Shown here: positions 597 to 51,593 of the stretch, piece after piece
How positions within the stretch are numbered: position 1 is the first letter of the stretch
How the letters are laid out: each line of letters opens with the position of its first letter
Source: Isotricha intestinalis
Taxonomy: Eukaryota; Ciliophora; Litostomatea; Vestibuliferida; Isotrichidae
NCBI GenBank assembly: GCA_023807065.1
Contig: JAJJLU010003568.1
Location: 1 to 51,593, forward strand
DNA length: 51,593 bases
Reading direction: 5' to 3'
The notes under the pieces: model-generated
The model's database searches: none
Told to the model about the DNA's origin: nothing
What the model saw: the letters and a program-made list of their open reading frames with translations, nothing else
Program-made: the position numbers and the translations under genes

Positions 597-1787
597 TTAA
601 AAAAAAGAAGATTTCATATTGTTAACAGAAGAAACAGGAGATTTTCCACTTAAATTTTTATATAATTCCCTAATATCAAAATCATTAGCATAAGTTTGAT
701 TATCAGTAATATTGTGAATATATTTTTCTAATTCAGGAACAGTTAAAACTTTACTTTCTTCCATAGTATCTAATTGATTTTTTTTATAAACTCTTTTTTT
801 ACCAGGAATTTCTGATTCGAATTTTTTTTCAAAATCAATTAAATTTTTTCCTTTCACAATTAAATCAGACATTAAACCAATTTCATGTAAAGTATTTTTT
901 CCAAAAGGAATAGAAGGTAAATAAGGATTATTTTCAAAAGTTTTAATATAGTTTTTATTCATTATAGGTTTCCTACATTTTAAAGCTGGATTAGGATATT
1001 TTTCAAAAAATCTTCCCCAAAAAGGATTTTCATTTGTTCTTATATTTATATAACAATCTCTTTTCCCTTTAAAATTTTTTGGTCTTCTTAAATTAAAATA
1101 CCAATTATAATCTCCTAATTTTAAATCATTTGGAGTTTTTTCATTTATTGTATTTAATATTGCATTTTTAAATTGAAATGAATCTATATTTGTCATTAAT
1201 AATGCTTCTCTTGATTTATTTGTTTTTTTAATTAAATAATTTTCTATTATTTTATATTCTCTATTTCTTTCTTTATGCTTTGTTAAATTTTTTTGTTGAA
1301 ATTTTAATCTTTCTTTGATTAAATCTGGTAATTCAGTTAATAATTCTTCATTTAATCTCCTTTTATTTAATTTAGTTTGTTTTTTAATATCAGAATATAA
1401 AGTTTGTAAAGATTCATATTCTAAAATATCTCCTTCACCATTATTATTCTTTAATATTTGTCCAATTGATTCAACTTTATTTTGTTTTTTAATTGGACTA
1501 TTTGGTTTCTTTAAAGCATTTCTATGTAATAAATTATGTGGTTCTTCACCAACATATGAATATGGTATTATTTCATTATCTGTATTAAATCTTGGTCCTT
1601 GCGGTTTCTTTCCTACATATATATTTGAATCTACATTTAAATATGTATCTTCATTATCAAAGAAATTATTCACATCTTTTAATATTTTCATTTTATTTTT
1701 ATGGTTTCTTAATGAACTTATTAAATATGTTTTACTTAATATATTAGTATCTTTATTATTTGTATTTTTATCATCATATGAATTCAT
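597..1787 (-). CDS. Conserved-looking hypothetical protein, 396 aa
   Basis: An intact leftward frame starts at the ATG whose complement is at 1785-1787 and ends in TAA. The protein is charged and Lys/Asn-rich, with no membrane segment or signal peptide. A central block around residues 225-280 is less biased: it has NWYFNLRRPKNFKG followed by Trp, Cys and Pro residues (NPFWGRFFEKYPNP). That mixture looks like a genuinely constrained segment rather than low-complexity linker. I have an impression of similar blocks in ciliate proteins of unknown function but cannot verify it. No enzyme motif is visible. The next leftward gene upstream is 2008..2499, separated by about 220 bp of AT-rich DNA, so the two look independently transcribed. 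Confidence 0.8.
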   Translation of the reverse strand: MNSYDDKNTNNKDTNILSKTYLISSLRNHKNKMKILKDVNNFFDNEDTYLNVDSNIYVGKKPQGPRFNTDNEIIPYSYVGEEPHNLLHRNALKKPNSPIKKQNKVESIGQILKNNNGEGDILEYESLQTLYSDIKKQTKLNKRRLNEELLTELPDLIKERLKFQQKNLTKHKERNREYKIIENYLIKKTNKSREALLMTNIDSFQFKNAILNTINEKTPNDLKLGDYNWYFNLRRPKNFKGKRDCYINIRTNENPFWGRFFEKYPNPALKCRKPIMNKNYIKTFENNPYLPSIPFGKNTLHEIGLMSDLIVKGKNLIDFEKKFESEIPGKKRVYKKNQLDTMEESKVLTVPELEKYIHNITDNQTYANDFDIRELYKNLSGKSPVSSVNNMKSSFF

Positions 1788-3252: not shown

Positions 3253-5352
3253 TTATATATCAATTGTTCTTCCTTTAACAGGAGGTTTGTGTATTTTTCC
3301 AGTACTTGCATCCATAGAACCAATATGATTACCATTTCTATCATAAACTTCAATATCTTTATGAGTATAATCCCATTCATAATATCTAGTTTTTTTTCCT
3401 TTTCCACTTTTTTTAATTTTTCCTTTGTAGTTTTCTAAACTGTTCCAAACTTTACTTTCTGCTTTTGCCTTAGAAGAAGAAGAATTTTGATTATTTTTAA
3501 TAAAAGAACATAAATCTTTCTGTAAATTTTTAAAACTACTTTGAAGAACATTAACACCATGAGCAGCATAAGCAATACCTTTAGCAACAGCAGAATATGA
3601 GACAATTAAAACTGGAATAGCAGCAAATGGGCCTACACTTAATCCTCCTAATAATCCTCCTTCTATTCCATTCATTATTATTCCTATTCCAAATATTGTT
3701 TTTAGTATTCCTCCTATTATTGATATTATATCTCCTGTTATTTTTCCTAATATATAAAAATTTTGATTGTTTATATTTAATACTTCATAATTGTTTGTTA
3801 TGTTCATAATATCCCTATTATTTAAAAATGCTCCAATTATCATAAATATTGGCTCTAATTGATTTTTTATTATTTCTATTCCTAATCCTTTTGAAAAATC
3901 ACTTATTTTTGATAAAATTGATTTTTCAATTGAATTAAAATTATTGCTTATATTAATTTCACTAATAATAGGTTGAATTGTTAAAGCTTCACTTCCCATT
4001 TCAAAATATCTTTTTTCAAATAATTTTTTTTCATATTGTCCTAAAACTTTATCTTCAGTTTGATAAGGATCATTAACAATATAATTATTCTCATTATATC
4101 CAACTAAAACTAAACAATGTTCATGTTTTAACCATGTATATTTTTTTCCAATTTTAGTACTAGCATTTTCATCAGCATATTTAATAATCCAACTATTGCC
4201 ACTTTCTGGTTTTTTCATTCCAATTGTTGCCCAAATTAATAATGGATGTCCTTTATCAATAAAATTTTCAATTAAATCTTCAAATTTATATCCTTTTAAA
4301 ACAAAAGCTTTATGTTTATCTAAAAATTTATTCATTGATTTTTCTATAACTGATGCAAAACAACCATAAGCTGAACCATAAGGATCACCAACAAAAGCAG
4401 ATTGCGGGTGTGGTCCTTCAGAAATTGCTTTTTTAATTAAATAATTATCAATGAAAGTTGATACTGAAATATTATAATTATAATATTTTAATAACATTAC
4501 AGAAGAAACTGATTCACAAGCATTTGGAAACTTTTTTTTTTGACTTATTCTAGGAACATCTATTAAAAAATCAAAACCATCAATTTCTCTTATCGGAGTA
4601 ATATTATTATCATTTCCTTTTATTGTTATACATCCATTTTCAAAAGTATAATCTGGACTCCATTCTCCTTTTATTTCTTTTCCTACATTTCCTTTAAATA
4701 ACAATTGAACTCCAGAATGATTTTGTTCCTTTACAGAATTATATAATTCATATTTTTTTCCTAATTCTAAATTATATTCATCTGAATGATAAGTACAATT
4801 TTCAAAAGAATTATTACCTCCTAAGCCAAATATACTTACTTTTATATTCCCACTTATAGAATCAATTAAATTTAAATATATTGAAGAATTATTTCCTTTG
4901 GTTCTTATACTTGTATAAGCTTCACCATTTTCATCTAATATATAACTAAATTTTTTATTTTTATAATTTCCATATTCTCCTTTGTTATCTCCAATTTTTA
5001 TACATCCATTTTCTTTTGCATAAGAAGGACTCCATTGTCCACATATATATAAACCTGGTGTTCCTTGAAATCTAATTTGAACTTGTGAATAACCATTTTC
5101 ATATACATTATTATATAATTCATATTTTAATCCTGCCTCTAATAAGTAATAATCTACATTATATGTACAATTACATTCTTCATTATCTTTTTTACCGTAT
5201 ATTACTACTTTTACTGCTCCAATTTCTTGAAAATCTGAACCTATTAAATTTAAATAAACTGAAGTATTATCTACTTTATCTCTATAATTTGTACAATATG
5301 GTTCATAAGAATCTAATTCTTTTTCAAAATATTCATTTTCATATTCATTCAT
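3253..5352 (-). CDS. C39-like peptidase / colicin E3-type RNase fusion (bacterial-type toxin)
   Basis: This intact 699-aa protein has no signal peptide. Residues 30-120 and 155-245 are two diverged copies of one unit: each starts SVYLNLI or SIYLNLI, has a YELYN segment, and ends in a (Q/E)WSP..Y..ENGCI block. Residues 262-435 match the C39-like peptidase fold of bacterial secreted proteins: Cys279 in a PNACE context, His412 in HEHCLVLVGYN, and Asp428 in VNDPY. Residues 540-600 are hydrophobic and Gly/Ala-rich, like pre-toxin segments of polymorphic toxins. The C-terminus (about 645-699) matches the cytotoxic ribonuclease domain of colicin E3, which cuts small-subunit rRNA at the decoding site. 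Asp661, His664 and Glu668 have the colicin catalytic spacing, and Arg695 stands where the fourth catalytic residue is expected. No frameshift or stop breaks the gene. Base composition matches its eukaryotic neighbours, so if transferred from bacteria it is ameliorated. It is head-to-head with 5399..7255. Target and role (anti-bacterial weapon, selfish element) are inference. Confidence 0.85.
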   Translation of the reverse strand: MNEYENEYFEKELDSYEPYCTNYRDKVDNTSVYLNLIGSDFQEIGAVKVVIYGKKDNEECNCTYNVDYYLLEAGLKYELYNNVYENGYSQVQIRFQGTPGLYICGQWSPSYAKENGCIKIGDNKGEYGNYKNKKFSYILDENGEAYTSIRTKGNNSSIYLNLIDSISGNIKVSIFGLGGNNSFENCTYHSDEYNLELGKKYELYNSVKEQNHSGVQLLFKGNVGKEIKGEWSPDYTFENGCITIKGNDNNITPIREIDGFDFLIDVPRISQKKKFPNACESVSSVMLLKYYNYNISVSTFIDNYLIKKAISEGPHPQSAFVGDPYGSAYGCFASVIEKSMNKFLDKHKAFVLKGYKFEDLIENFIDKGHPLLIWATIGMKKPESGNSWIIKYADENASTKIGKKYTWLKHEHCLVLVGYNENNYIVNDPYQTEDKVLGQYEKKLFEKRYFEMGSEALTIQPIISEINISNNFNSIEKSILSKISDFSKGLGIEIIKNQLEPIFMIIGAFLNNRDIMNITNNYEVLNINNQNFYILGKITGDIISIIGGILKTIFGIGIIMNGIEGGLLGGLSVGPFAAIPVLIVSYSAVAKGIAYAAHGVNVLQSSFKNLQKDLCSFIKNNQNSSSSKAKAESKVWNSLENYKGKIKKSGKGKKTRYYEWDYTHKDIEVYDRNGNHIGSMDASTGKIHKPPVKGRTIDI

Positions 5353-5398
5353 TAATAATCTTTATCAAATTTATAGATTATAATATTTAGATTAATAA
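5353..5398. promoter_or_regulatory. 46-bp shared upstream region of two divergent genes
   Basis: Only 46 bp of A/T-only-like sequence separates the start codons of the leftward toxin-like gene and the rightward 618-aa gene. Both promoters must be inside this stretch or overlap the opposite coding region. That makes co-regulation plausible. No specific motif is recognised. Confidence 0.4.
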
Positions 5399-7255
5399 AT
5401 GAATGATAATAAAGATTTAAATGAAGCTCCATTATGCTTTGACAAACCTACAAAAAAAACAGAAACATTAAATGAAGAATCAATTGAATCAAAAAAGAAA
5501 AAAATATTGGACAATTATATTCTTAAAGATTTATCCTTTTTACAAGAAATAAAATTTACATTTCAAAAATCAAAAGAAACAATAACATTAAATCCTAAAA
5601 TGGAAGTAGAAATAAATGAAACAAAATATTATGTATTTTACAACAATGATTTAATAAAATTAAAACAAATGTTTTTCTCAAAATTAGAAGATCTTATTGA
5701 AGAACATTATTTAATTTTAAGTTATGATAAATCAGCATTATATGAAAAAGCAAGTTCCTCAGTATATGAATCAAAATTAAAATTACCAATTCAAGTTTGG
5801 AGAATGATTGGAAATTTAGTAGGACCTCAATCTTATTTATTTGCCCCTATCAATATAATAAGAAAAGTTGTTTCATTGACTAATTCTCAAATATTAAAAT
5901 TAGCCAAAATTTATGCAACTACTTGTGCTAATTTAAATTTTGCTATTAATAAATATGGTATTGAAATTAATGATGGAAAAATTTGTTATATTTTAATTAA
6001 TAAAGATTTCAATGATTTTATTTATTTTAATGAATCTGAAGAACTTTCTATTATTGAAAAAACTTATTTATCAATTTTTAAATCTGGAATTTCTGATGAT
6101 AAAATAATACAAGCTTTTGATACCACAACAAAGAATTTAATATATACTTATGAAAGTTCAAATGATATAAATAATATATGTTTTATTTTATTTAGGGCAT
6201 CTTATTATTTAGGAAAATTTGAATCTGACCTTCAATATAAAGATCTTAAGACTTTAGAAAATATGGATAAATTTAAAAAACAATTAATTAGAGATTACTT
6301 AAATTTTCGATTCCCAATTTTTAAAAATATTTCCCCAATTCAAAATATAGAATTATATAATTGTAGATTAATTCATCAAACTGATAAAGTAACAACAATA
6401 TATATAAATAGAATAGAAACTCAAAGATTTATAAAATTAATAAATGAAAATTTAGATTCAAAAATAAGGAATTTATCAAGAAAATATAAATTAGATGCTT
6501 TTAAAGATAATGAATTCAGAGAATTGGCAGAATCAATAGATTTTAATTATCAAGATAATATTGTAAAATATGTTGAAAATCAAATTATTAATTTAGAAGC
6601 TGAAATGAATTTAAATAATAATACAGGAAGAAGATTATTAATGAAATCAGGACTATTATTATTAAAACAAGGAACTGACATAATTATAGAATATAAAAAA
6701 AATAAAATAATGAATTTTTCACAAAAAGAAATTGAAAATTCATTAAAACAAGAAAAAGAAAATAAGCAACAAAAATCATTTTCTTTTAATAAATTTTTAA
6801 AAGGTAATTTCGAAAATCCAAAAAATATAGTTGTTGATTCATTAGTACAAAAAAAGAATACTGAATCAAAAGTTGAAACTGTAAGTTTTCCTCATAATGA
6901 AATAAAAGCAATAAATAATTTATCTTTGGTTAGAAAGAGTTTAGAAGATTTACAATTAGGAAATCACATTGATGAAATTTTTAATGGACTTAATTATTAT
7001 ATTAATGGAAATAGATTACAAAAACAAATTGATATTCTTACAAAACAAAAAAATCAATTAGAAGGTATTAAAGATTATATGGGAAATTTTATTAATTTAG
7101 TTAAATTATATTGTGAATTAAAAAAAAGAAATTTAGATATAAATGATAATTATGAAGGAATTTTTTTGACTGAAAATAAATATTTCACTGTTGGAAACAA
7201 TGAAATTGTTAAAGGAAATGAAATGTTATTGGAATATCGAATATTAGTTTTTTAA
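5399..7255 (+). CDS. Unrecognised 618-aa protein, divergent from the toxin-like gene
   Basis: The intact frame runs from ATG at 5399 to TAA. There is no signal peptide or clear membrane segment. The first ~40 residues are charged. Residues 130-230 are mixed and less biased, with Trp, Gly, Pro and Cys (IQVWRMIGNLVGPQSYLF, then a Cys/Ala-containing helix), which looks like a folded domain. The second half is helical and Lys/Asn/Glu-rich, with probable coiled-coil stretches around residues 375-410 and 540-580. I recognise no family. Because it starts 46 bp from a toxin-like gene with which it shares its upstream region, it is a positional candidate for an immunity or partner protein. Nothing in its sequence shows that role. 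Confidence 0.75.
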   Translation: MNDNKDLNEAPLCFDKPTKKTETLNEESIESKKKKILDNYILKDLSFLQEIKFTFQKSKETITLNPKMEVEINETKYYVFYNNDLIKLKQMFFSKLEDLIEEHYLILSYDKSALYEKASSSVYESKLKLPIQVWRMIGNLVGPQSYLFAPINIIRKVVSLTNSQILKLAKIYATTCANLNFAINKYGIEINDGKICYILINKDFNDFIYFNESEELSIIEKTYLSIFKSGISDDKIIQAFDTTTKNLIYTYESSNDINNICFILFRASYYLGKFESDLQYKDLKTLENMDKFKKQLIRDYLNFRFPIFKNISPIQNIELYNCRLIHQTDKVTTIYINRIETQRFIKLINENLDSKIRNLSRKYKLDAFKDNEFRELAESIDFNYQDNIVKYVENQIINLEAEMNLNNNTGRRLLMKSGLLLLKQGTDIIIEYKKNKIMNFSQKEIENSLKQEKENKQQKSFSFNKFLKGNFENPKNIVVDSLVQKKNTESKVETVSFPHNEIKAINNLSLVRKSLEDLQLGNHIDEIFNGLNYYINGNRLQKQIDILTKQKNQLEGIKDYMGNFINLVKLYCELKKRNLDINDNYEGIFLTENKYFTVGNNEIVKGNEMLLEYRILVF

Positions 7256-7594
7256 AAACACAAATAATTAAATTATTAAAAATAATGATTTGTTTGTTTA
7301 TTAATAGATTTGAAAAAATAATCAATTATTCATTATAATTTAAATAATAAACGCAGATTTTTTACTTAAAAATTTTAAAAAAATCCTAGTATTTAAAACA
7401 GAGAATCTCTTATTCAAATTCATTCTAATATCTTTGATTTTCTATTTGGGACATCATTAAAAATAATTTCTAAATTTTTTTTTATATTAAAAGAATATTA
7501 TATTTATAATTTGATCACTTATATTTTCACAATTATATATTTATAAAAAATTCAATTTATACAAACAAAAATATAATATATTTTATCTAATAGA

Positions 7595-8205
7595 AATTTA
7601 TTTGTTAGACATGGACAAACTTATGCAAATATAAATAATAAAGTTCAAGATTAAACAGGGATAAAGTTAACAGATTTAGAAAAAAACAAAGCAAAAATAT
7701 TAAGAAAAAAGATTATATTAATTAAAATGTATAATAACCTGATTGAAATAGAACTAAACAACATTATCTCAGATATTAAATAAATCAAAATATGAAAAAC
7801 CCAATATAATATATTCTGAAAAACTTTAGAGAAATTAATGTAAATTTTTTAAAAGTTCATTCTCATGAAGAAGAAGATAAAATTTGATATTTTGGATTAA
7901 CTAATTATGCATAAAGTAAAACAGGAGAAAAATATAAAGTTTTATTAATGTTTTTTAGAACTGGGGAATTATTGATGATTTAATTAAACATATTTTGATA
8001 AAGTGGAATTACTAAAGATAATTATTTAGAATTAAATTTAAAGCATGAACAAGATGATTTAAAAGATATTATTCAAAAAGGAGAATTAATTATGATGTTA
8101 ATGATAAAAAATTTATAAAAAATTAGTATTTAAACATGTTGATACTCCTTTGGAAATGATTGATGATTTTTGTTTAGATTGAATAAAACATTCATTAAAA
8201 GGTTT
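7595..8205 (+). pseudogene. Decayed histidine phosphatase (phosphoglycerate mutase family)
   Basis: The frame at 7595 reads NLFVRHGQTYANINNKVQ, containing the catalytic RHG motif, and soon after TGIKLTDLE, the usual next motif. Further on, in a shifted frame, comes IIYSEKL-stop-R, which corresponds to the conserved Y-S-x-L-Q-R motif of the family. Nonsense codons stand at 7652-7654 (TAA), 7827-7829 (TAG), 7885-7887 (TGA) and 7912-7914 (TAA), and at least two frameshifts separate the readable blocks. No intact protein can be made. Several nonsense codons occupy positions where the family has Gln, or where Trp would fit. Confidence 0.7.
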
Positions 8206-8379
8206 GGTTAGGAAAAGAATTAAATATTATTATTTCCTAAAAATGAGTTAATAATAATAATTATTTAAATATTGCTTTCAATACTTTTAATGATTGTAGT
8301 AATTTAAATCTGTAAAACAAAAAGATTATTATTTCAAAAATAATTAACACTAACTTTCTTAATCATTAAATTTTTTTAA

Positions 8380-9468
8380 CTAATCATTATCTTCAATTAA
8401 GCCTTCATAACCTAAACTAATTAAAATTATATGACAATAAAAGAAAAAAAAAGGAAATTTATTCATATCAATCCCACAAGTAACAATTGCTCTAACCATT
8501 ATTATAATTAAAATTAAAAAAGAATAAGAAAATAAAATCATAGAAATATAAAAAACTGATAAAGCATATAATAAATTACCAAATTTATTTCTGATTTTAT
8601 TTTCGAAACCTAAAATAATTAAAGGATAAAAAGAACAATTAGGAAAAGAACATAATATTAAAGTTAATAATCCAATAAGAGCAAGAACTAAAGGAAAAAC
8701 AATAATTTTAATTAAAACATTTATAAAAGAATGATCAGTTTCACAACATTCATAAGTATTTCTAAAATAACATATTTTTGAACATTCATAACAACATTGA
8801 TCCATACAACAACCATCTAAAATATAAGTACATTTTCTTCCTCCTGTACAACCTCTTTTTTGAACATATTTTTTTCTCATTATTTCTTCTTCAGTTTGAT
8901 ATATATATTTTGGTTTAAAAATTTTATTATTTTCATTACATAATTTATTCTTATGTTCTGGTTTTAAACATTTTGAACAATATTTATGATTATTTTTACA
9001 TATTAAAATTATTGGTTCTATTTCTAATATTTTTATATCAATATCTCTTATCGATAGATTACTATTTTTATCATTTATATTTGAATTTTCATCATTTATT
9101 ATTTTTTTATTTAAAGGATTATTTAACTCATTTAATATTATATATGACTCACAATTTGGAAAAGGACATGGAATTGAATTTTCAATCAATTCTATTTTAT
9201 TCCAATAAAATAAATGATTTAAATCTCTATCGTTTTCTATTATTTTTTTTGAAGTTTCTTCTAAATAATAATAATTACAACTTGAAAGAATACATTTTAT
9301 TTTATAACTGGTATGAGATTCAGATAATTTAGATAAAAAATATTCCTTTGTACATTTACTACAAAAAATATGTTTACATTCAGGAGATGAAAAATTATTA
9401 TTACATTTAATTTCACATACTTCACAAAAATAAGTATTACTATAAAAATCATTGTTTCCTATTTTCAT
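8380..9468 (-). CDS. RING/IBR-type membrane E3 ubiquitin ligase-like protein
   Basis: This 362-aa frame ends in TAG. Residues 15-64 form a complete RING finger: Cys15, Cys18, Cys31, His33, Cys36, Cys39, Cys59, Cys64. A Cys/His-rich region resembling an IBR follows (CPFPNC near residue 100, then CKNNHKYCSKC around 155-170). A third Cys-rich block (about 205-245) has CxxC pairs but not the Cys-x-His pattern that carries the catalytic cysteine of RBR RING2. Two hydrophobic segments (about 252-275 and 300-330) anchor the protein. By family it should attach ubiquitin to membrane-associated substrates. Whether it works as an RBR (thioester) or a plain RING ligase is open. It is divergent from RPN11, with about 100 bp between the starts. 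Confidence 0.75.
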   Translation of the reverse strand: MKIGNNDFYSNTYFCEVCEIKCNNNFSSPECKHIFCSKCTKEYFLSKLSESHTSYKIKCILSSCNYYYLEETSKKIIENDRDLNHLFYWNKIELIENSIPCPFPNCESYIILNELNNPLNKKIINDENSNINDKNSNLSIRDIDIKILEIEPIILICKNNHKYCSKCLKPEHKNKLCNENNKIFKPKYIYQTEEEIMRKKYVQKRGCTGGRKCTYILDGCCMDQCCYECSKICYFRNTYECCETDHSFINVLIKIIVFPLVLALIGLLTLILCSFPNCSFYPLIILGFENKIRNKFGNLLYALSVFYISMILFSYSFLILIIIMVRAIVTCGIDMNKFPFFFFYCHIILISLGYEGLIEDND

Positions 9469-12929: not shown

Positions 12930-14675
12930 TTAATAATTTACATTAGTATTCATTTCTTTTCTAATTCCTTTCCATATATTTACAATATTTAATCCAATAT
13001 TATTTTTTTTTCTTTTAGGAATTCTTTTTTCTGGACTTAAACTAATCGGTTTTTTAAAGGTATTACTTCTATCAAAGCTTTTTTTCTTGGTTCTTTCTGT
13101 TTTTTTAATATCTTTAATTTTAACATTTTTACCTTTATTTTTTTTTTCAACTTTAGTTTTAATTTTAGAATCATTAATAATTCTTTCAGTGTTAATATAA
13201 TTAACACTATTTCTTTCACTTTTAATAGAAAAAATTTTATTTTTATTATCTTCTTCATTAATATCATCTTCTTCATTTTCTTTTTCTCTATCATTTTTTG
13301 CTTTTTCTAAATAATAAGTAATTCTAATATGTATTTTATTAGCTTCTCTCAAATCATCATATTGATAAATGGAAAATAAATAATAACCTAAAATAGTTAA
13401 TTCAGAATCTTCATCAGAATCATAATAAGGAACAATAGGAATACCATTATTTAAATGATAAGCAAAACTTAAAACAGAATTATCAACAATAACAATATCT
13501 TTTAAATTATAAAATTTATCAAAAATACTTAAATCTTTAATATAAAATTTCCTTCCATTAACATTAGCTTGAACACAATTATTTCTATATAATCTATATT
13601 TAGTATATTGTTTCTTAGGATCCATATAATTTAAAACAGCATCAGCATAAGATTGATGACTTGCAGTATAAATAACAATATGATATTTATCTTTTATTAA
13701 TTCCATTGTTTCTTCCCAATTTGGTCTTATATTAATTCCTATTTTAATTTCCTTTCTTGATGGTAATGTCACTTCTACAATATGTTTATATTTCTTATTT
13801 ATTTTTTCATTTTCTTTTATTTCTCCTATACAATGAGCTAATGTTTCATCTAAATCAAATAATACTATTTTTTTTTTCTTATTTATTTCATCTTCTGGAA
13901 AATTCAAATTTATTTTTTCTTTTATTTGAATTTGCTGTGATTTATCTAAATCTAATATCATTTCCATACATCTTTCTGTATATTCATAAAAGTCACTTAT
14001 ATCTTCTGTGTTTGTAAAATTTTTTACTTTTTCTTCAGGGTTAAATAAAAATTTATTTGTTTTAATAGATTGTCTCTTATCATTATTTTCTTTTTCCTTT
14101 TCTTTTTTTATTATTTTATCATTTAATTCATTTTTTATGTTCTTATCTTCATTGTCGTTGTTTATATTTTTTGAATTGTTTTTTTTATCTAATTTTTTAA
14201 ATTTATTATTTCGAGGAACACTCATATTTTTTTTAAACATTTTCAATTCATTTTCATCAATTTTGTGTTTATTAAAATAAGTTTGATTAGTAAAACTAGT
14301 TTTAACTTGAGGAGGATTATTTTTTAATTTTTCAATTAATTCATCATAAATTTTAGATAAATCACTTTTATTATAATTTTCAGTTTTGGTTCTAAAATAA
14401 GAATTTCTTTTTGATTCTTTTAGAGTATTAACTCTAAAAATAGAGCTAGAATCTTTAGATTGAGGATAAAAAGAAGATTTCATTTTATTTGTATTTTTTG
14501 GGTTTTGAAGATGTTCTTCTGAAAATGATAATTTCATATTATTTTTCCAAATTGGAGTAAATACAATTGATGGTGAATTTTTATCATTTCCTGATTTTTC
14601 TGAGGAATAATTATATGATGGAGAATATGATATTATTGGCTCTGAGAATGTTATTGTTTCTTCTTCATTTGTCAT
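12930..14675 (-). CDS. SCP/NIF-like Ser/Thr phosphatase (FCP1-homology, HAD family)
   Basis: This 581-aa protein ends in TAA. A disordered, Lys/Asn/Ser-rich N-terminal half leads to the FCP1-homology domain (about 265-450). It starts KKIVLFDLDETLAHC, where DLDET is the DxDxT nucleophile motif. It continues with IYTASHQSYADAVLNYMDP (the T/S motif and helix typical of small CTD phosphatases) and ends with IVIVDNSVLSFAYHLNNGIP (the D-N motif that binds magnesium) and PYYDSDEDSEL. The family dephosphorylates the RNA polymerase II tail or other phosphoserine substrates. The long N-terminal extension and the basic C-terminal tail (after about 470) are lineage-specific. Catalytic residues look intact. 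Confidence 0.92.
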   Translation of the reverse strand: MTNEEETITFSEPIISYSPSYNYSSEKSGNDKNSPSIVFTPIWKNNMKLSFSEEHLQNPKNTNKMKSSFYPQSKDSSSIFRVNTLKESKRNSYFRTKTENYNKSDLSKIYDELIEKLKNNPPQVKTSFTNQTYFNKHKIDENELKMFKKNMSVPRNNKFKKLDKKNNSKNINNDNEDKNIKNELNDKIIKKEKEKENNDKRQSIKTNKFLFNPEEKVKNFTNTEDISDFYEYTERCMEMILDLDKSQQIQIKEKINLNFPEDEINKKKKIVLFDLDETLAHCIGEIKENEKINKKYKHIVEVTLPSRKEIKIGINIRPNWEETMELIKDKYHIVIYTASHQSYADAVLNYMDPKKQYTKYRLYRNNCVQANVNGRKFYIKDLSIFDKFYNLKDIVIVDNSVLSFAYHLNNGIPIVPYYDSDEDSELTILGYYLFSIYQYDDLREANKIHIRITYYLEKAKNDREKENEEDDINEEDNKNKIFSIKSERNSVNYINTERIINDSKIKTKVEKKNKGKNVKIKDIKKTERTKKKSFDRSNTFKKPISLSPEKRIPKRKKNNIGLNIVNIWKGIRKEMNTNVNY

Positions 14676-15184
14676 ATTTTTTTTTTTTTTATTTTATAAA
14701 TATTTTTTAATTATTATTATTTTGTTATATTTTTATTTAATAATATATATTTTTTATTTTAAAACGGAATTTATATTGTTTTGAATTTAATATTTTTTAA
14801 TAAAAGTATTATTTGATAGTATAAAAACATTGTAAATTATCAATATCATTTATATAAATATAATAACACTCTTTAATTATTTTATAATACAAATAATTTA
14901 TTTTTCTAAAGAAATCAATTAATTTGAAAATTTATAAAAAGATTATTATTTTTTAAATGTTTTTAAATATTTTATTTATTTCCTTTCTTACATAACTTTT
15001 CTGAATTAAGGATAATTCTCTTTGTTGTATAATTATTGTTTCTTTCATTTAAATTAGATTATTTTTACTAATTCAAAATTATAATAATTTACCTAACAAA
15101 TAATTTTTTGGTCTTTGAAAATATTTATTTTCATGATTTTAATTATTTAAAACCTAAATAATAATTTAAATTTCATAGGTATAT
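14676..15184. other. AT-rich intergenic region
   Basis: This 509-bp gap lies between divergent genes. It contains the upstream regions of the leftward phosphatase gene and the rightward small gene at 15185. I see no reading frame, RNA-like island or repeat in it. Confidence 0.5.
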
Positions 15185-15445
15185 ATGTCTAATATATGTG
15201 ATGTATCAATTGAAATAACTCCTCGAATTAATAAAGCATATTTTTTTAATTTTGGAATTGAAAAAAAATTTCATCAAAAAAATAATTCTATTTCTTCAAT
15301 AAAGACTGAAGGTTCTACTTGTCAAAAACATGTAACTTTTTCAAAAATAGAAATAATTAGAGTAGAAAATTATAAAAAATATAATAAAGTAAATAGATAT
15401 GAAAATAATTTATTTAATGAAGAAAATAAATGTTGGATTTATTAA
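15185..15445 (+). CDS. Small protein with a PP1-docking-like KxVTF motif, 86 aa
   Basis: A short intact frame ends in TAA. The protein is basic with no membrane segment. Residues 48-52 are KHVTF, which fits the RVxF-type docking motif for the catalytic subunit of protein phosphatase 1. The following SKIEIIRVENYKKYNK resembles segments seen after RVxF sites in PP1 regulatory proteins. N-terminal and C-terminal flanks are not recognised. The gene is small, and coding status rests on a clean frame with a mixed composition. An inhibitor or targeting role for PP1 is inference from the motif alone. Confidence 0.55.
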   Translation: MSNICDVSIEITPRINKAYFFNFGIEKKFHQKNNSISSIKTEGSTCQKHVTFSKIEIIRVENYKKYNKVNRYENNLFNEENKCWIY

Positions 15446-16187
15446 AATAAAAATCAAATCAATTTAATTCAAAAAAAACACATATAAATAAATAATATTA
15501 AAAATCTTTAGTATTGATGTATCTTAATTATATATTGTTGGTTAACTTATAAATTTATTAAGGGTACCTCAATATGATATTAAAATATAGAATATTTCTG
15601 TTAAATATAATTATTCTATAAATAAATATTAAAAAAATTGAAAAAAAGTATATTATATTTTTATTACAAAAAATTTCTTGATAACCCTTTAAAGCACTTA
15701 ATATATAATAAGTAAAATATATATTTGTAATAGAGTTTCTCAATTCAGAGTAATAACAGGATCTACAATACATTATATGACTATTTATTGATTCATAAAA
15801 TTAATTTTCATATATTATATATTTGTATATTATTATTATTTTGAATGATTTTTCCTATTTAATATTAAAGTTTTTTACTAGGGATGAATTTTTAATTAAT
15901 ATCATTTTTTATCATTAATCCTTCTAATTCTATAAAAATACTTTGAAAATTTTATTTCCTTTTGATTCTTTTTCTTTTTTCTACAAAAGTTCTTTTATTT
16001 AAATATCAAAAAGTATATACGCGATTTAAAAATATATTCTTGTTCCTATAATAAATATATATTCAAAATATTCCAATATATATATTATTCTAAAAATCAA
16101 TTTTTAATTGATAAATTAATATTTTATAGTAATACTATTTATAAATTTGCTAAAATAAAAAATTATTAAAAAAAAAATTATAATTTT
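15446..16187. other. AT-rich intergenic region, 742 bp
   Basis: This gap lies between convergent genes. A 71-codon leftward frame (15558..15773) beginning MYCRSCYYSELR is the only sizeable open stretch. Its second half is pure hydrophobic A/T translation, and no partner exon is visible. I found no RNA-gene signature. Confidence 0.45.
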
Positions 16188-51511: not shown

Positions 51512-51593
51512 AGAAAATAATTTTATACAAATAAAATAAAAAAATATGTGTTATTATCAATTTTTAAATAATTATGATATTATTTGGGGATTG

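Follow-up and report, generated by a model that had tools for sequence, protein, structure and literature searches.

A polymorphic-toxin-type protein with a C39-like peptidase and a predicted E3-type ribosomal RNase, encoded on the chromosome of a likely gut ciliate

The E3-rRNase family, to which colicin E3 belongs, also includes cloacin DF13 and pyocin S6 in the account given in PMC9990079. In a survey of polymorphic toxins the phyletic list for the corresponding domain, Tox-ColE3, names bacteria only, and the same survey makes clear that transfer of toxin domains from bacteria to eukaryotes is already known (PMC3482391). Here we describe a gene for a protein of this general kind in a stretch of 51,593 nucleotides (JAJJLU010003568.1, hereafter the window), which is the whole of contig C1004 in a 57.3-Mb assembly. 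The 699-residue product of this gene (Table 1) begins with two beta repeats, continues with a C39-like peptidase and a hydrophobic linker, and ends in an E3-type RNase domain. Judged from its sequence, this architecture is that of a complete polymorphic-toxin-type protein.

The initial annotation of this DNA described one unbroken frame with two repeated units at the N-terminus and a hydrophobic Gly/Ala segment, and all three features hold. Resampling these 2100 base pairs (bp) 500 times under a Markov model gave a longest open frame of 158 codons, and the observed frame is therefore not a chance product. The 46 bp to the first ATG of the divergent frame leave little space for an upstream exon. 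The two repeats are identical in 57 of 120 aligned columns, and the first is related to the DUF2712 repeats of other family members; the Gly/Ala segment can be read directly from the translation. An NCBIfam scan returned no match to the protein. In the AlphaFold model the predicted local distance difference test score (pLDDT) is 80-96 over most of the beta repeats and the C39 domain and mostly below 50 over residues 463-699, which is why the C-terminal tip was folded separately.

The proposed peptidase triad of Cys279, His412 and Asp428 lies within a match to PF13529 with an expectation value (E) of 4.6e-21, above the curated cut-off, and Gln271 takes the oxyanion-type position beside it. Of 7719 candidates in a family search, 44 qualified as relatives at E <= 1e-3, giving 45 rows with the window protein (P0001; relatives are cited by number). 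Cys279 is kept in 44 of these rows, and Gln271, His412 and Asp428 in 42 each, the remaining rows having gaps at these positions save for one N and one K at 271. The model also matches the C39-like peptidase 3erv with a template modelling score (TM-score) of 0.81 by target length and an E of 2.9e-11; the other 34 fold matches at E <= 1e-3 had target TM-scores of at most 0.34 and were set aside. Peptidases placed ahead of the tip in polymorphic toxins are thought to free it, and the survey that says so places C39-type domains among the toxins and not among the processing peptidases (PMC3482391). A processing role here may be proposed from the position of the domain before the tip. Two further C39 genes were seen in the assembly. 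One, on the minus strand of contig C5 (1489-2139), encodes 216 residues with a signal-peptide-like start and has neither repeats nor tip; the translations of the frames on either side of it resemble an RNA polymerase subunit 2 and a radial-spoke protein. The other, C39-like and on the minus strand of contig C1704 (1327-2208), encodes 293 residues with one N-terminal transmembrane-like stretch.

The C-terminal tip matches PF09000, the colicin E3 cytotoxic domain, over residues 644-697 (E 9.4e-10, 39.1 bits against a curated cut-off of 22), and the last 99 residues alone score 43.7 bits; both profile matches that the initial annotation had called for were thus found above their curated cut-offs. 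An alignment with the Protein Data Bank (PDB) entry places D661, H664, E668, H676 and R695 on colicin E3 D55, H58, E62, H71 and R90, which are regarded as the catalytic positions. Four of these correspondences had been proposed earlier, together with an Arg offset differing by one, and both points stand (the offset is 34 in the window protein against 35 in colicin E3); H676 adds a fifth. PMC3482391 names D55, H58 and E62, remarks that some members lack H58 and makes a case for a second His. When the tip was folded alone from four sequences, block pLDDT values over its last 49 residues were 80-91, and colicin E3 entries ranked 1-4 among the fold matches with a probability of 1.00 and E of 1.9e-3 to 3.3e-3. 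The TM-score against colicin E3 was 0.38-0.44 by query length in this four-sequence model, and no fold match reached E 1e-3. The tip is predicted to cut the decoding site of 16S rRNA. In viral contigs there was no match for the whole protein or for P0168; two loci matched the tip alignment, and the one examined has a colicin-E3-like tip. A region search with residues 600-699 returned only P0002 among 86 candidates, missing P0003, and so was insensitive.

That the gene has been kept intact, as first suggested, is evident from the full frame and from its two closest relatives. P0002 is 97% identical and represents a cluster of 59 member sequences, with two contigs listed; P0003, 64% identical and either without the first repeat or mis-started, has the same RNase tip. 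Both keep all nine enzyme residues. The linker is 59% identical to that of P0003 over residues 461-600 and 52% over 601-642. P0001 and P0003 differ at 21 of 57 RNase residues, yet the five active-site positions are unchanged, as they are in P0002, and this suggests selection on the RNase active site. The same retention argues against the idea that the protein has been reused as a peptidase or binding protein, with the tip a relic of weak or no activity. Conservation is higher in the C39 domain than in the RNase (74% against 63% relative to P0003, 96% against 93% relative to P0002), and the genome has the two other C39 genes while the RNase profile matches once in the assembly, all of which would fit a relic; we nevertheless consider it distinctly unlikely.

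The family as a whole shows the common trunk and exchangeable C-terminal tips of polymorphic toxins, and by domain order the peptidase stands before the tip. Tails longer than 60 residues follow the C39 domain in 35 rows and fall into 15 clusters, or into 11 clusters from 31 rows when the four repeat-less rows (P0038, P0040, P0042 and P0044) are left out; since P0011 and P0020 both carry Ntox44, the 11 clusters amount to about ten kinds. The named tips are the E3 RNase (three of 45 rows, the window protein counted), Tox-WTIP, Ntox44, Ntox21 and Amidase_6, and the remaining tails gave no toxin family above cut-off in the members scanned. The third mark of such toxins, an export signal, is absent from the window protein and present in its bacterial-type relatives. 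A hydrophobic N-terminus, defined as a 12-residue mean above 2 on hydropathy with no signal-peptide program used, occurs in 22 of 45 rows, and by this measure the window protein has none, in agreement with the initial annotation. Two of the 44 relatives bear eukaryotic names (from Histomonas and Tritrichomonas), both without a hydrophobic N-terminus, and eleven further rows were called parabasalid-like from the trees and the missing signal alone. Among the individual members, the metagenomic P0031 (555 residues) has the same trunk, no hydrophobic N-terminus, an Ntox21 tip and an AT-rich residue composition, with a content of Phe, Tyr, Met, Ile, Asn and Lys (FYMINK) of 0.38, and may be another such toxin of a protist. 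The parabasalid-like P0017, P0018, P0024-P0026, P0028, P0032 and P0035 have one C-terminal tip in common, unassigned to a family, which in most of them ends near a G-D-V-I/V-T/S-V motif.

Phylogenetic analysis was carried out on two sets of rows. The first tree held 42 rows, with the near copies P0012 and P0014-P0016 taken out and the C5 paralogue put in, and had an unclean outgroup and several long rows; the second held 30 trunk rows, 15 of the 45 having been dropped as near copies, partial, repeat-less or long-branched. In the first, the window clade joined P0004, P0006, P0009, P0010 and P0033 at 95/94 (bootstrap/Shimodaira-Hasegawa-like approximate likelihood ratio test) and then P0008 at 96/93, and a wider bacterial-type group of 18 rows that includes P0036 of Candidatus Improbicoccus received 87/75. 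The second tree repeated the placement of the window clade at 92/94 and 89/86 (not starred). The earlier proposal that the gene was acquired from a bacterium is favoured on these sequence comparisons insofar as the window clade lies among signal-bearing bacterial-type rows; the topology tests given below leave it at the border of significance.

The initial annotation had asked for a comparison with homologues from rumen and gut Firmicutes. From species genomes, 80 of 326 related stretches were kept and compared in a controlled test in which all queries match the window's own locus: the C39 query matched 80 of the 80 loci, whereas six repeat queries, the linker and the tip matched none. On sequence, the closest relatives of bacterial type thus seem unlike ordinary rumen Firmicutes. 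Among bacterial proteins that bear a name, P0036 alone has the beta repeats; it is from Ca. Improbicoccus pseudotrichonymphae, a clostridial parasite that lives inside the cells of a termite-gut flagellate. The clade of this bacterium has members inside termite-gut protists and metagenome-assembled genomes from ruminants and humans, with related 16S sequences in rumen ciliate fractions (PMC10579323). The donor was likely one of the protist-dwelling Clostridia, a relative of Ca. Improbicoccus.

We think it on balance probable that this toxin-type protein, likely derived from protist-dwelling Clostridia, is made as a cytosolic precursor whose RNase is released by the peptidase against bacteria inside the cell. 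The precursor would be made without a signal peptide, and the RNase would stay inactive while fused. Its release may come from the C39 domain or from a trigger that the beta repeats sense, and the freed RNase would then cleave the decoding site in the 16S rRNA of bacteria within the cell. A protein secreted through Sec by a Gram-positive bacterium lying free in the cytosol would end in the host cytosol, which is also the place of a signal-less host copy, so that loss of the signal would leave the workplace of the toxin unchanged. More tentatively, it is possible that an intact toxin, with sensor-like trunk, releasing peptidase and ribosome-cutting tip, was captured by a gut ciliate from its own intracellular clostridial parasites and is run in its cytosol as an intracellular antibacterial immune effector, as part of a pool of trunks with swappable tips common to gut protists of two supergroups and their Clostridia.

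The main functional rival is that the RNase is self-directed, a suicide effector or killer element which, once a trigger or parasite is sensed, cuts the cell's own 18S decoding site. The decoding site is conserved across life, and as no signal peptide is seen the protein would be made beside the host ribosomes. Toxin domains acquired by eukaryotes have also been proposed as apoptosis-like or defence components (PMC3482391). One RNase-tipped copy was found in the assembly, without indication that it had spread, and searches that had no positive control recognised no antidote, both of which count against a killer element or suicide system; we regard the self-directed reading as unlikely.

Several points weigh against clostridial origin and antibacterial use. 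The signal-bearing rows do not all fall together, P0045 grouping apart with P0043 and P0037. In approximately unbiased (AU) tests, which counted P0020 with its mildly hydrophobic N-terminus (1.39) as bacterial, neither the union of all signal-less rows in one clade (p 0.054) nor that of the bacterial-type rows in one clade without the window (p 0.055) was firmly rejected. P0036 matches in the beta repeats alone, with no C39 match found, and as the remaining rows of bacterial type are unnamed, they are only presumed to be Clostridia. The trees do not fix a root, and for the family as a whole transfer may have gone either way. It can be suggested that the trunk was born in gut protists and passed to their intracellular Clostridia, which added signal peptides. 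Both trees set the signal-less parabasalid-type rows apart from the main group of bacterial type, and a related endosymbiont is reported to have a kinase gene that likely came from its protist host (PMC10579323). Against such an origin, C39 domains are present in numerous gut Firmicutes and Planctomycetes (among the 80 loci kept of 326) and the window clade sits among bacterial-type rows, and we give it rather little credence. On the side of function, the PF09000 match spans profile positions 25/26-79 of 80, leaving the N-terminal part of the domain unrecognised, and there is no visible route for a cytosolic protein into bacteria held in phagosomes. Genome searches with PF03513 (Cloacin_immun), PF15572 (Imm45) and P0169, the gene following the SAR2788 toxin discussed below, gave no match and lacked a positive control, and the adjacent frames gave no significant Pfam family match and none was recognised as an immunity gene.

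The place of the gene in a eukaryotic chromosome, with composition like that of its host, was part of the initial annotation and is well borne out. From position 8380 rightward the window encodes clearly eukaryotic proteins: an IBR protein, RPN11, an NIF phosphatase, a Rab, two PUF proteins, an EF-hand/HU-CCDC81 protein and Hsp70. To the left, the frame at 597-1787 belongs to a host multigene family with at least 12 further matches on 12 other contigs, none with internal stops and the best at 59% identity. The codon usage of the toxin gene gives z 1.5 against the other 25 window frames (range -5.9 to 4.7), with a GC content at third codon positions (GC3) of 0.066. Window GC is about 14-29% per kilobase (kb), and the 26 frames end in TAA (20), TAG (5) and TGA (1). 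The ciliate-type telomere at the right end agrees with the rest of the assembly, in which exact (CCCCAAT)3 occurs 840 times forward and 746 times in reverse, the reversed control occurring 0 times; among the first 100 or so places, the matches sit at low coordinates or form runs at high coordinates, and on C5 such a run reaches the last base of the contig. CCCCAA repeats had no match. The litostome Muniziella cunhai is reported, in the genome features given in PMC11316547, to have (CCCCAAT)n telomeres, the standard code, TAA as its commonest stop and a GC content of 26%. From the CCCCAAT repeat the host is most likely a litostome (gut) ciliate; an anaerobic fungus or a parabasalid, which the AT-rich DNA and the relatives of the protein had brought to mind, fits this telomere less well. 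An alveolin profile was also tried, and its match proved to be a kelch-type protein with an EKIVEVPKEV repeat; as the profile also matched a bacterium, this was not used.

Could the gene nevertheless come from an assembly chimera or bacterial contamination? It lies 3.3 kb from the left contig end, where no telomere repeat was found, the three nearest frames (597, 2008 and 5399) have no significant Pfam match, and the frame at 2008 is atypical in codon usage (z -4.7). Against this stand the family of the left-flank frame on other contigs, the eukaryotic genes to the right, the host codon usage and GC3, and P0002 with its 59 member sequences. The 5399-7255 neighbour too has a relative, on contig C651 at about 14299-15856, in three pieces of which one has three in-frame stops; the toxin protein itself had no match on that contig. 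FYMINK content is 0.42 in the window protein and in P0002 and 0.30-0.37 in 15 signal-bearing C39-trunk rows, but the bacterial-type P0043 and P0045 are as rich (0.43 and 0.46). Taken together, contamination appears very improbable. Elsewhere in the window, stop-ridden remains on the plus strand at 7586-8260 are probably a pseudogene, whose start we take to resemble a histidine phosphatase (RHG motif).

Table 1. Coordinates and supporting evidence for the toxin-like gene, its parts and its surroundings in the window
Feature	Position	Strand	Evidence or remark
Toxin-like gene, whole	3253..5352	-	699 amino acids, single frame ATG to TAA, no signal peptide seen
Beta repeat 1 (residues 5-123)	4984..5340	-	48% identical to repeat 2; AlphaFold beta strands, pLDDT ~90
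Beta repeat 2 (residues 131-247)	4612..4962	-	Identity to repeat 1; AlphaFold
C39-like peptidase (residues 264-430; Q271, C279, H412, D428)	4063..4563	-	PF13529 match; fold 3erv; residues kept in family
Linker with hydrophobic Gly/Ala segment (residues 461-642)	3427..3972	-	Read directly
Predicted E3-type rRNase (residues 643-699; D661, H664, E668, H676, R695)	3256..3426	-	PF09000; colicin E3 alignment; fold matches
Gap, possible promoter shared with divergent frame	5353..5398		46 bp, start codon to first ATG of divergent frame
Left flank, host multigene family member, 396 amino acids, no Pfam match	597..1787	-	Family matches across assembly
Divergent neighbour, 618 amino acids, no known family	5399..7255	+	Not recognisable as immunity gene
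Ten bases of (ATTGGGG) telomere repeat	51584..51593	+	Right contig end

As far as our literature searches show, a complete protein with trunk, peptidase and E3-rRNase in a likely ciliate is new. Searches on PF09000, on polymorphic toxins in ciliates and gut protists and on C39 in trichomonads gave no such report in the titles and abstract openings listed, though an earlier one may exist. By sequence the family appears to be common to two gut-protist groups and to proteins of bacterial type, among them one encoded by an intracellular clostridium. If the RNase is active, a eukaryote would here hold a ribosome-cutting bacterial weapon in its own cytoplasm, in a form that can be tested on a single gene, and the question would arise of how the host ribosomes are protected. 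The gene may also offer a way into the conflict of gut ciliates with intracellular Clostridia, about which little is known.

Comparison with the known systems places the protein at a meeting point of several. The closest tip seen outside the present family is that of a SAR2788 family putative toxin on CP079755.1, a record named Klebsiella grimontii, with 61.5% identity over 65 residues. This toxin differs in being 252 residues long, with a signal-like N-terminus and no C39 match, and is followed by a 197-residue gene without a Pfam match. On CP079755.1 an S8 peptidase, the SAR2788-family toxin and the 197-residue gene adjoin; this toxin family is typical of Firmicutes, so the organism label of that record may deserve a check. 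With colicin E3 and its family the window protein shares a C-terminal RNase with Asp, His, Glu, His and Arg in equivalent places and the closest predicted fold. The match is confined to residues 640-696, leaving the receptor-binding and translocation domains of colicin E3 without counterpart, and the window protein differs further in the peptidase ahead of its tip, its eukaryotic host and the lack of a recognised immunity gene.

Within the family, P0036 shares the pair of beta repeats, whereas P0004-P0016, P0019 and P0021 share both repeats and C39 domain, at up to 53% identity; all of these differ from the window protein in their signal peptides, and many in a long N-terminal extension. The tips of these relatives are Ntox44, Tox-WTIP, Amidase_6 or unnamed, with none in P0004 and P0006. 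The C39 peptidase of Histomonas meleagridis (P0034) and TRFO_40258 of Tritrichomonas foetus (P0035) have the same trunk of repeats and C39 and likewise no hydrophobic N-terminus, but carry other C-terminal tips, are 40% and 38% identical and lie on separate branches of the tree. The NlpC/P60, GH19 and GH25 genes of Trichomonas are likewise bacterial genes, laterally acquired and kept by a mucosal protist, with a proposed antibacterial use (PMC12612818). Those enzymes act on the cell wall, whereas the window protein has the architecture of a toxin and would act on the ribosome.

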